DNA from: Caballeronia sordidicola
GTDB taxonomy: Bacteria > Pseudomonadota > Gammaproteobacteria > Burkholderiales > Burkholderiaceae
Assembly: GCF_001544455.2 (NCBI RefSeq)
Contig: NZ_FCOC02000022.1
Span: forward strand, 1-64,000
Reading direction: 5' to 3'
Length of the DNA: 64,000 bases
Position numbers and translations under genes: made by a program. The notes beneath the pieces were generated by a model that saw nothing but the letters and a program-made list of their open reading frames with translations, was not told where the DNA came from and did not search any database. Within the stretch, counting starts at the first letter, position 1; every line of letters begins with the position of its first letter. This document shows, one piece after another, positions 30,715 to 39,318 of the stretch.

Positions 30715-32061
30715 TTGGCTAATAGCCCGAGTCTCGCAAAATCCGGTCGAAGCGCTGCGAAGTTCGGCGATCTGCGTCGGCGTGCAATGTTCTTGCTGCT
30801 GGCGCTGATCGTCTACCGTATCGGTGCGCATATTCCGGTGCCGGGTATCGACCCGGATCAACTGGCGAAGCTTTTCCAGAGCCAGTCAGGCGGCATCCTG
30901 GGCATGTTCAACATGTTCTCGGGTGGTGCGCTGTCCAGGTTCACGATCTTCGCGCTTGGGATCATGCCGTACATCTCGGCGTCGATCATCATGCAGTTGC
31001 TGTCGATCGTTTCGCCGCAAATGGAAGCGCTGAAGAAAGAAGGGCAGGCAGGGCAACGGAAGATCACGCAGTACACGCGTTACTTCACGGTTGTTCTGGC
31101 AACGTTCCAGGCCTTCGGCATTGCGGTGGCGCTTGAAAATCAAGCCGGGCTCGTTATTGATCCTGGCATGGTGTTCCGGCTGACGACGGTAGTGACGTTG
31201 GTGACCGGCACGATGTTCCTGATGTGGCTGGGCGAGCAGATCACGGAACGCGGATTGGGCAACGGCATCTCGATCATCATTTTCGGTGGTATTGCGGCGG
31301 GTTTCCCGAACGCAATCGGTGGTCTCTTTGAACTGGTTCGTACCGGTTCCATGAGCATCATTTCGGCGATCATCATTGTCGTGCTGATTGCGGCGGTAAC
31401 GTTTCTGGTGGTTTTCATCGAACGCGGCCAGCGCAAGATCCTGGTGAACTATGCCAAGCGTCAGGTCGGAAACAAGATTTACGGCGGTCAGTCTTCGCAT
31501 TTGCCGCTGAAGTTGAACATGTCGGGTGTGATTCCGCCGATCTTCGCGTCGTCGATCATCCTCTTCCCGGCAACTATCCTGAACTGGTTCAGTTCGGGTA
31601 CGCGGACCGGCTGGTTTGCGAACACGCTGCACAACGTTGCCGAGGCGCTCAAACCCGGTCAACCGGTGTACGTGTTGCTGTACGCGATGGCGATCGTTTT
31701 CTTCTGTTTCTTCTACACCGCACTGGTGTTCAACAGCAGAGAGACGGCCGACAACCTGAAGAAGAGTGGTGCCTTCGTACCGGGGATTCGTCCGGGTGAC
31801 CAGACGGCACGGTATATCGACCGGATTCTCACGCGTTTGACGCTGGCCGGTGCGATCTACATCGTGTTTGTTTGCTTGCTGCCAGAGTTTCTGGTGTTGC
31901 GTTGGAACGTGCCGTTTTACTTCGGTGGAACGTCGCTGCTGATCATTGTCGTGGTCACGATGGATTTCATGGCGCAGGTTCAGTCCTACGTTATGTCGCA
32001 GCAGTATGAATCGCTGCTCAAGAAGGCGAACTTCAAGGGTAGCAACGTCCCGATGCGCTAG
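30715..32061 (+). CDS. secY: Preprotein translocase subunit SecY
   Basis: SecY is the channel of the Sec translocon. The 448-residue product has ten predicted membrane helices, the plug-adjacent segment [11 protein letters not shown] near residue 45, [17 protein letters not shown] near residue 80, and the cytosolic loop with [17 protein letters not shown]. The start is TTG at 30715 behind CGGAGAAGG, giving [17 protein letters not shown]. The next gene position is the infA remnant. Confidence 0.98.
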
Positions 32062-32069
32062 GCAGGACG

Positions 32070-32188
32070 GTGGCCAAAGGCGGCGGAAGGTGACTCTCCC
32101 GCTTGCTGGCCACCCTGGCGACAAGGTAACGGTTGAGTTGACCCCTTACGATCTGTCTCGTACACGGATCGTGTTACGGGCGAAGTGA
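32070..32188 (+). pseudogene. infA: infA remnant (translation initiation factor IF-1), internally deleted
   Basis: Between secY and rpmJ, where Burkholderiaceae normally carry the 72-codon infA, only pieces remain. A GTG GCC AAA (the usual M-A-K start) at 32070-32078 follows AGGAC, then runs into a stop at 32091-32093. In another frame, 32114-32188 encodes PGDKVTVELTPYDLSRTRIV followed by LRAK and a stop, an almost unchanged IF-1 C-terminus. Start to stop is 119 nt instead of the expected 219, so about 100 nt are missing and the frame is broken. Loss of the OB-fold core makes it non-functional; IF-1 must come from another copy, which lies outside this window. Confidence 0.85.
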
Positions 32189-32208
32189 TTTGAAAAAAGG
32201 GTAATATC

Positions 32209-32325
32209 ATGAAAGTGATGGCATCGGTTAAGCGCATTTGCCGCAATTGCAAGATCATCAAGCGCAAGGGCGTTGTGCGCGTGATTTGCAGCTCTGATCC
32301 GCGCCACAAACAGCGTCAAGGCTGA
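32209..32325 (+). CDS. rpmJ: 50S ribosomal protein L36
   Basis: L36 is the smallest 50S protein. The 38-residue product [26 protein letters not shown] has the complete zinc ribbon C11, C14, C27, H33, so it is the zinc-binding form. AAAGGG precedes the ATG by 8 nt. It lies between the infA remnant and rpsM. Confidence 0.97.
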
Positions 32326-32366
32326 ACGCCGCGCTTTTGCTTGCGCTTTTTGTTTGAGGAAAAACA

Positions 32367-32732
32367 ATGGCTCGTATCGCAGGGGTTAACATCCCGAATC
32401 ACCAGCATACTGAAATCGGCCTCACGGCAATTTTCGGTGTAGGCCGCACGCGCGCTCGCAACATTTGCGTGGCGTCTGGTGTGGAGTTTTCGAAGAAGGT
32501 CAAAGACCTCACTGACGCAGACCTCGAAAAGCTGCGAGAAGAAGTGGGTAAGTTCATCGTAGAAGGCGACCTGCGTCGCGAAGTGACGATGAATATCAAG
32601 CGCCTGATGGACTTGGGCTGCTACCGTGGCGTTCGCCATCGCAAGGGCTTGCCCATGCGTGGACAGCGCACGCGTACGAATGCCCGTACCCGCAAGGGTC
32701 CGCGTCGTGCAGCGCAATCGCTGAAGAAGTAA
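32367..32732 (+). CDS. rpsM: 30S ribosomal protein S13
   Basis: S13 forms head-to-50S bridges and contacts P-site tRNA. The 121-residue product starts [23 protein letters not shown] and ends in the basic [16 protein letters not shown] tail. It is preceded by GAGGAAAA and begins the alpha-operon group rpsM-rpsK-rpsD-rpoA-rplQ. Confidence 0.98.
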
Positions 32733-32758
32733 GCGGAATATAGTTACAGGAAAACGTA

Positions 32759-33163
32759 ATGGCTAAGGCTTCGAACAACTCCGCGGCGCAACGCGTTCGC
32801 AAGAAGGTCAAGAAGAACGTCGCCGAGGGCGTGGTTCACGTTCACGCGTCGTTCAACAACACCATCATCACGATCACCGATCGCCAGGGCAATGCACTCG
32901 CCTGGGCAACGTCGGGTGGCCAGGGCTTCAAGGGTTCGCGTAAATCGACCCCGTTTGCAGCTCAGGTCGCAGCCGAGTCGGCTGGCCGCGTGGCAATGGA
33001 ATACGGCGTGAAGAACCTCGAAGTGCGGATCAAGGGCCCTGGTCCTGGCCGTGAATCGGCGGTGCGTGCGCTGCATGGTCTTGGTATCAAGATCACCGCA
33101 ATCTCCGACGTAACACCGGTCCCGCACAACGGTTGCCGTCCGCCGAAGCGTCGTCGTATCTAA
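32759..33163 (+). CDS. rpsK: 30S ribosomal protein S11
   Basis: S11 lines the 30S platform near the mRNA exit. The 134-residue product contains [19 protein letters not shown] near residue 29, RKSTPFAAQ, and the C-terminal signature [18 protein letters not shown] 158-nt gap with a strong hairpin follows. Confidence 0.98.
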
Positions 33164-39155: not shown

Positions 39156-39276
39156 CCGGTCGAGCAAGGCGCCTGGCGCCGAACTCCCCGCTTCTCCTCC
39201 CTGAGCGGGCGCCTGTGGCGATTCGTAAAGGATTCGATCAGGCTGTTTGGCCCGCCGTCACGCGGCGGGCTTTTTT
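39156..39276 (+). ncRNA. Possible small RNA ending in an orphan terminator
   Basis: A perfect 8-bp G/C stem (39250-39257 with 39263-39270) followed by six T residues (39271-39276) is an intrinsic terminator on the plus strand, yet both flanking genes (hemB, engB) are on the minus strand. Upstream, AGGCG/CGCCT and CCCGC/GCGGG can pair to form a larger stem between about 39167 and 39215, and weak promoter-like boxes (TTCAGA, then TATATC at 39147-39152) precede it. This suggests a plus-strand RNA of about 110-125 nt. The start is a guess. Confidence 0.35.
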
Positions 39277-39318
39277 ATGCCGGGAACATGTGCACCCGTT
39301 CCAGGCTCACTGTGAGGC

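Follow-up and report, generated by a model that had tools for sequence, protein, structure and literature searches.

Background

IF-1 belongs to the universal translation initiation factors, and its gene in the spc operon (infA) is usually regarded as part of a fixed ribosomal gene cluster. Related descriptions in the literature are four: i) the passages available from PMC8046335 describe how rpmJ in the Gammaproteobacteria and rpsN in the Bacilli were lost from their operon cluster, with an older copy present elsewhere in the genome; ii) plastid infA is described as repeatedly pseudogenised, e.g. in Allium and its relatives (the part of PMC8296844 concerned); iii) Cupriavidus metallidurans CH34 is listed with a second IF-1 gene, infA2 (Rmet_5176) (a passage in PMC2864759); and iv) in Bordetella pertussis the IF-1 gene located between secY and rpmJ carries the name infA2 (a passage in PMC7742992).

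The locus described here was found in a window of 64,000 nucleotides (the whole stretch that was analysed) from Caballeronia sordidicola. As in the rpmJ and rpsN cases, as far as the passages of PMC8046335 go, a core gene of the spc operon was deleted in several lineages that possess a pre-existing homologue outside the operon; unlike in those cases, the gene is infA, encoding an initiation factor, the genomes are of the Burkholderiaceae type and part of the 3' end of the gene, beside rpmJ, was kept. The comparison with plastid infA, within the part of PMC8296844 concerned, gives the same gene and several independent losses of function, whereas the substitute here is a paralogue within the same genome. 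The second IF-1 gene has its like in infA2 of the related strain CH34, but the passage on infA2 in PMC2864759 mentions no loss of an spc copy, and here that copy is lost. Among the matches listed by our search of the open-licence literature we found none that deals with a lost spc infA in these bacteria, with a kept 3' end or with an element within the end of infA. The replacement by a paralogue is of a known kind; what is new is that the gene was lost repeatedly while a stretch close to rpmJ tended to be kept.

Results and discussion

An infA remnant between secY and rpmJ

The features of the junction are collected in Table 1. After the secY stop codon (TAG, 32059-32061) and an AGGAC motif (32064-32068) no frame of about 72 codons that scores above the IF-1 family cut-off is present at the spc locus; 24 codons are left, corresponding to IF-1 codons 49-72 (PGDKVTVELTPYDLSRTRIVLRAK, 32114-32185), which are followed by TGA (32186-32188), a leader of 20 nt and the rpmJ ATG at 32209. 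The remnant differs from the intact congeners by two residues in this tail (A65T and F69L), and it gives no match in a PF01176 profile search (E up to 0.001). A reading made from the sequence alone had recognised both this remnant and a frame-incompatible GTG-GCC-AAA start behind AGGAC, and both are indeed there: the start opens GTG GCC AAA GGC GGC GGA AGG TGA (32070-32093), i.e. seven codons and a stop in a frame other than that of the tail. The longer frame that runs from a GTG to the infA stop is probably not a gene, considering that the genome G031 has ATA at its start and G028 a break in the frame of the tail.

Table 1. Features of the secY-rpmJ junction in the analysed window
Feature	Position	Strand	Basis
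secY, upstream neighbour, intact	30715..32061	+	ORF list, 448 aa
fast-evolving stretch, from secY to the infA tail	32062..32113	+	sequence and junction comparison
mini-ORF where infA used to start, 7 codons and stop	32070..32093	+	read from the sequence
32-codon reading frame with stop, from GTG to the infA TGA, spanning the tail	32090..32188	+	sequence
infA tail, codons 49-72 and stop	32114..32188	+	sequence, comparison with congeners
stretch next to rpmJ for which constraint is proposed (infA codons 65-72 with stop, 20-nt leader; -47 to -1)	32162..32208	+	
rpmJ (ribosomal protein L36)	32209..32325	+	ORF list, 38 aa

The sequence-only reading had further proposed that about 100 nt were deleted from the middle of the gene and that the junction should be aligned with those of close relatives. 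The comparison bears out the size: measured from the final base of the secY stop codon, the secY-rpmJ distance is 148 nt in the window and 241-250 nt in 49 intact congeners, so that a net ~100 nt is missing, and six other genomes of the genus carry a remnant. The description is accurate with one limit: the 52 nt before the tail cannot be recognised as infA codons 1-48 (the alignment is no better than chance; 60 of 300 shuffles reach its score) and are tied to infA by their position and, by eye, the start-like AGGAC/GTGGCC. Including its counterparts in other genomes, this stretch of 52-62 nt is either infA decayed beyond recognition or foreign.

That an intact infA was wrongly sequenced or assembled here is as good as discounted: a remnant lies at the same place in six other assemblies of the genus, with species-specific differences and with four of these being named public records, and such an error is therefore very unlikely. 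By its place between secY and rpmJ, its inactivation and the disappearance of protein constraint (seen from amino-acid changes and a frame break among the remnants), the locus is an infA pseudogene.

A second IF-1 gene

It had been reasoned from the sequence that a second IF-1 copy must exist elsewhere and have taken over, and that the genome should be searched for it. That search recovered a single PF01176 match in the genome of the window (G000), a stop-free gene on a separate contig (C3:550042-550230; 73.8 bits, cut-off 30.2) that encodes a protein of 89 aa with ~50% identity to the spc form. The copy thus exists, but it did not arise for the takeover, being found in 56 of 58 congeners (absent: G027, which is 60% complete, and G009). 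A full spc copy (94-96 bits) is present in 50 of the 58 genomes of the genus, absent in seven and broken in one (G009), and 49 of the 58 have both the second gene and a full spc copy. Because of this distribution the second IF-1 must be older than the loss, and the loss is backed by a pre-existing paralogue: relatives that keep spc infA also have the second copy. This paralogue most likely supplies the IF-1 of the organism.

The second IF-1 of the seven loss genomes is 99-100% identical to that of the window's genome and that of the intact genomes 91-100%; identical proteins also occur in the intact G050 and G055. In the 14 of 29 loci that were aligned (the other 15 lacked the start pattern) no change in the surviving protein was seen that is linked to the loss. 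In two sister genomes of another genus that also lost the spc copy (G187 and G131, both consisting of two contigs), the second IF-1 gene lies on the other contig, which is probably a second replicon.

A separate observation concerns G009 (2.8 Mb, same genus; locus L044, G009:C312), in which spc infA is broken, as read by eye, by the deletion of 12 nt and the insertion of 1 nt. A second IF-1 was not found in this assembly; as it consists of 640 contigs, this may reflect an error or a contig that is missing.

Losses of spc infA within Caballeronia

The spc copy is lost in seven of the 58 genomes of the genus (G000, i.e. the genome of the window, G028-G032 and G036), all of which have a remnant at the same place. 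The named genomes with a short secY-rpmJ distance, Caballeronia sordidicola S170 and PAMC 26633, Burkholderia sp. Leaf177 and sp. S171, are the same assemblies as G028, G029, G030 and G032, with which their junctions agree. In what follows, 49 of the 50 intact genomes were examined, as G042, in which the gene and junction are split across contigs, was left out of the junction and intact-gene comparisons; the frameshifted G009 was kept out of the intact sets.

The well-kept tail had been taken as a sign of recent loss, and the divergence of the remnants contradicts this. Among the seven loss genomes the mean difference in the stretch before the tail is 0.25 (272 of 1089 sites in 21 pairs, 222 gap columns aside), compared to 0.048 and 0.042 for the two parts of the tail, 0/420 for the rpmJ leader, 0.028 for the end of secY and 0 for rpmJ; since rpmJ itself shows no differences, the low divergence may partly reflect local conservation or recombination. 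The stretch is alike in six of the seven (G000, G036, G030, G031, G029 and G032), yet between the groups {G000, G036, G031, G030} and {G029, G032} it differs by 0.19-0.33, which is at or above the divergence at fourfold sites of the neighbouring genes (0.15-0.20). The pair G036/G030 forms an exception, with 1/62 in the stretch versus 0.09 at fourfold sites. A loss so recent that the tail had simply not yet decayed would account for the 24 readable codons, and as the 52 nt before them cannot be recognised as infA and could be foreign, their divergence need not be infA decay; however, whatever its origin, the stretch is common to both groups and has diverged at least as far as the fourfold sites, so that the event must be old, and the same contrast is seen within recognisable infA in G187 and G131 (see below). 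We consider a recent loss highly improbable; the loss is about as old as the two Caballeronia species groups.

A tree of the flanking sequences, which comprised 57 congeners plus two outgroups, has loss genomes in three places: {G000, G031, G036, G030}; {G029, G032}, beside the intact G033 and G035; and G028, beside the intact G055. The remnant of G028 aligns with infA codons 37-48 (none of 300 shuffles reach the score) and the other six show nothing there. G028 therefore represents a separate deletion, which brings the number of events in the genus to at least two. The three places in the flank tree and the distinct deletion of G028 rule out a single ancestral loss in a clean clade.

As an observation in its own right, the presence or absence of infA disagrees with the flank tree, as seen when the junctions of G029, G032 and G028 (L179, L180 and L181) are set against those of G021, G046, G055, G033 and G035. 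At the 164 sites that separate the group {G000, G031, G036, G030} from five intact genomes, G029 and G032 are mostly intact-like, except from roughly -160 to -70 of rpmJ. This short tract of differing affinity points to short-tract recombination, possibly with restoration of the gene. Either the deletion would have moved between lineages early on, or intact relatives would have regained infA via short recombination; the intact infA alleles of the mixed clade, with 13 of 15 pair distances inside the 5-95% range of other pairs, are compatible with either history.

Losses in the wider family

The survey of the family covered 299 genomes, followed by 144 genomes of genus g19 and 60 of genus g3 (presumably Paraburkholderia and Cupriavidus, respectively). 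For each genome the row with the lowest E-value was used to choose candidates, and genomes with a weak best IF-1 match were opened. Three genomes were not counted among the losses (G393, 86% complete; G432, 54% complete; G435, no junction match) and three small ones with weaker IF-1 matches (G060, G065 and G082; 0.2-1.2 Mb) were left out of the junction inspection.

Inactivated spc infA genes were recovered in several forms: decayed in place in the g19 genomes G187 and G131, which are sisters (support 1.0); deleted except for the last eight codons in G090 (g14); deleted except for about the last nine codons in G305 and G426 (g3); reduced to six initial and four final codons, joined in frame, in G433 (g3); and partly deleted or decayed in G134, G224, G209 and G313 (all g3). 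Based on the form of the remnants and on flank trees, we estimate at least seven independent inactivations in the family, two of which in Caballeronia (G009 not counted).

Three further observations were made in passing. Between -72 and +116 of rpmJ in G134 (L101) there is a start within the infA remnant that is in frame with rpmJ and could give L36 an N-terminal extension of 24 residues. The spc infA of G405 (C44:6082-6273; L125) is full-length, scores 91.5 bits versus 95.9 in most genomes and groups weakly (0.375) with G187 and G131. In G435 (g3; 91% complete, 90 contigs) neither an IF-1 family match nor a junction match was found, probably due to incompleteness.

Nucleotide conservation next to rpmJ

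The genes that decayed in place allow the clearest comparison, within recognisable infA, for which G187 and G131 were each set against a relative with the same type of leader. Between G187 and G262, 55 of 186 aligned sites changed in infA codons 1-64, and the 47 sites made up of codons 65-72, the stop and the leader are all unchanged; between G131 and G296 these numbers are 66 of 187 and again 0 of 47 (Fisher p for the decayed part versus the rpmJ-proximal 47 nt: 1e-6 for G187 and 3e-8 for G131). When the references are swapped, the last eight codons and stop still show 0/27 and the leader 2/20 differences. As the two genomes are sisters, they count as one strong case.

In Caballeronia the tails of the remnants have accumulated the changes D51A, R64C, A65T and F69L and a 1-nt deletion that breaks the frame, whereas codons 49-72 show no amino-acid change in the 49 intact congeners examined. 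These four changes and the frame break rule out protein constraint on the tail, and selection on the protein is therefore no explanation for its being kept. The end of infA stands out even where the gene is intact: at 12 of its last 15 positions a single codon is used across the 49 intact congeners, other parts of the gene being quite uniform too.

Deletions in other genera end before they reach the rpmJ-proximal 47 nt, at about -47 (G090), -52 (G433), -62 (G426) and -63 (G305) relative to rpmJ; taken by themselves, these endpoints would also be expected if it was simply the ribosome-binding site that had to be spared. Changes within 45 nt of rpmJ were counted against the intact genome that gave the fewest, a choice that favours conservation. 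There are none in G029, G032, G028, G187, G131, G426, G433 and G209, one in G000, G036, G031 and G030 (at -33) and in G313 (at -35), and three in G224 (-31, -36 and -43). G090 has a 1-nt insertion at -13 and differs at -35, where its reference, G103, is the unusual one; an insertion at -7 occurs in G305, together with a change at -19, and in G134, together with changes at -25 and -45. The conservation of nucleotides next to rpmJ is thus observed in one lineage that decayed in place and in Caballeronia; the pattern is strong in G187/G131 and moderate in Caballeronia, with several changes inside the 45 nt in g3 and g14 genomes. Taken together, the tail appears to be conserved for a reason other than recency, and this would be repeated in other genera, with exceptions.

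A proposed extended start region of rpmJ

The locus is an old remnant of spc infA in a genome whose IF-1 most likely comes from the paralogue. We consider it probable that the end of infA was kept because rpmJ has an extended 5' start region: the ~45-50 nt ahead of rpmJ, including the 3' end of infA, would belong to it and would also serve the alpha operon behind rpmJ. The end of infA would have been kept neither through recency nor for a peptide. This is the simplest reading, because in the better cases the constraint adjoins rpmJ, does not act on the amino acids and reaches ~45-50 nt upstream. The changes inside the last 45 nt in several lineages count against it. That the job of the kept stretch is the expression of rpmJ is what we infer from these patterns.

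A different explanation for the kept tail is that it is translated, either for its peptide or as a relay that leads ribosomes to the infA stop and so opens the rpmJ start (translational coupling). A frame beginning with ATG, GTG or TTG and ending at the infA stop is present in all seven Caballeronia loss genomes (a raw count), beginning only at about codon 57 in G031 and G028, and the fusion in G433 preserves the frame. Moreover, in a 102-nt window the native Caballeronia tail folds such that it closes the rpmJ start, with an opening cost of 6.8-7.1 kcal/mol versus means of 3.0-3.4 kcal/mol for shuffled sequences. Yet the amino acids of the tail are not conserved, G031 has ATA where G029 has ATG, and in G028 the tail frame is broken. 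The fold is likewise sensitive to its context: the opening cost is 3.0-6.4 kcal/mol in longer contexts (native sequence only, without shuffles), and the start-closing effect is absent in G187, G131, G090 and the g3 genomes tried. Three substitutions in the remnants leave the fold unchanged, which is not significant (~0.13), as 49% of 126 single changes weaken it by more than 0.5 kcal/mol. We therefore regard a translated tail as unlikely.

A clearly shared RNA fold was not found, the single folds of 33 sequences differing between genera; a consensus fold of 28 distinct sequences has -28.7 kcal/mol, computed without a control. The Rfam search gave no family match at 32062-32208 and none at gathering score within 31900-32900, where at E up to 5 it returned only Alpha_RBS and a chance-level snoR14. 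The Alpha_RBS match (RF00140; 32304-32399, + strand) has 33.9 bits, below the cut-off of 38, with an E-value of 7e-6, and reaches the start of rpsM. Elsewhere in the window, an anti-hemB small RNA (RF02837) was found at 39185-39278 (+ strand, 74.6 bits).

The position directly upstream of rpmJ and the sequence conservation would also suit a promoter inside infA that drives rpmJ and the alpha operon. A scan of 31900-32800 with the sigma-70 consensus only found no sigma-70-like site on the + strand, the one hit being on the - strand (32765-32737), and such a promoter seems to us fairly unlikely.

A wider version of the extended start region, which we put forward as doubtful though conceivable, holds that the end of infA is a dual-use nucleic-acid element that would control rpmJ and the alpha operon (including rpoA) and that was exposed by the at least seven losses; infA of Caballeronia would in addition have been switched by short-tract recombination and possibly restored at its native place.

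Conclusions

For annotation, the absence of infA from its usual place in C. sordidicola-type genomes looks real. Natural lineages for which the divergent paralogue is the only IF-1 recovered show what features of the protein may be dispensable. The repeated losses act as natural deletion experiments, and the parts that survived them point to sequence on which rpmJ and the alpha operon may depend.
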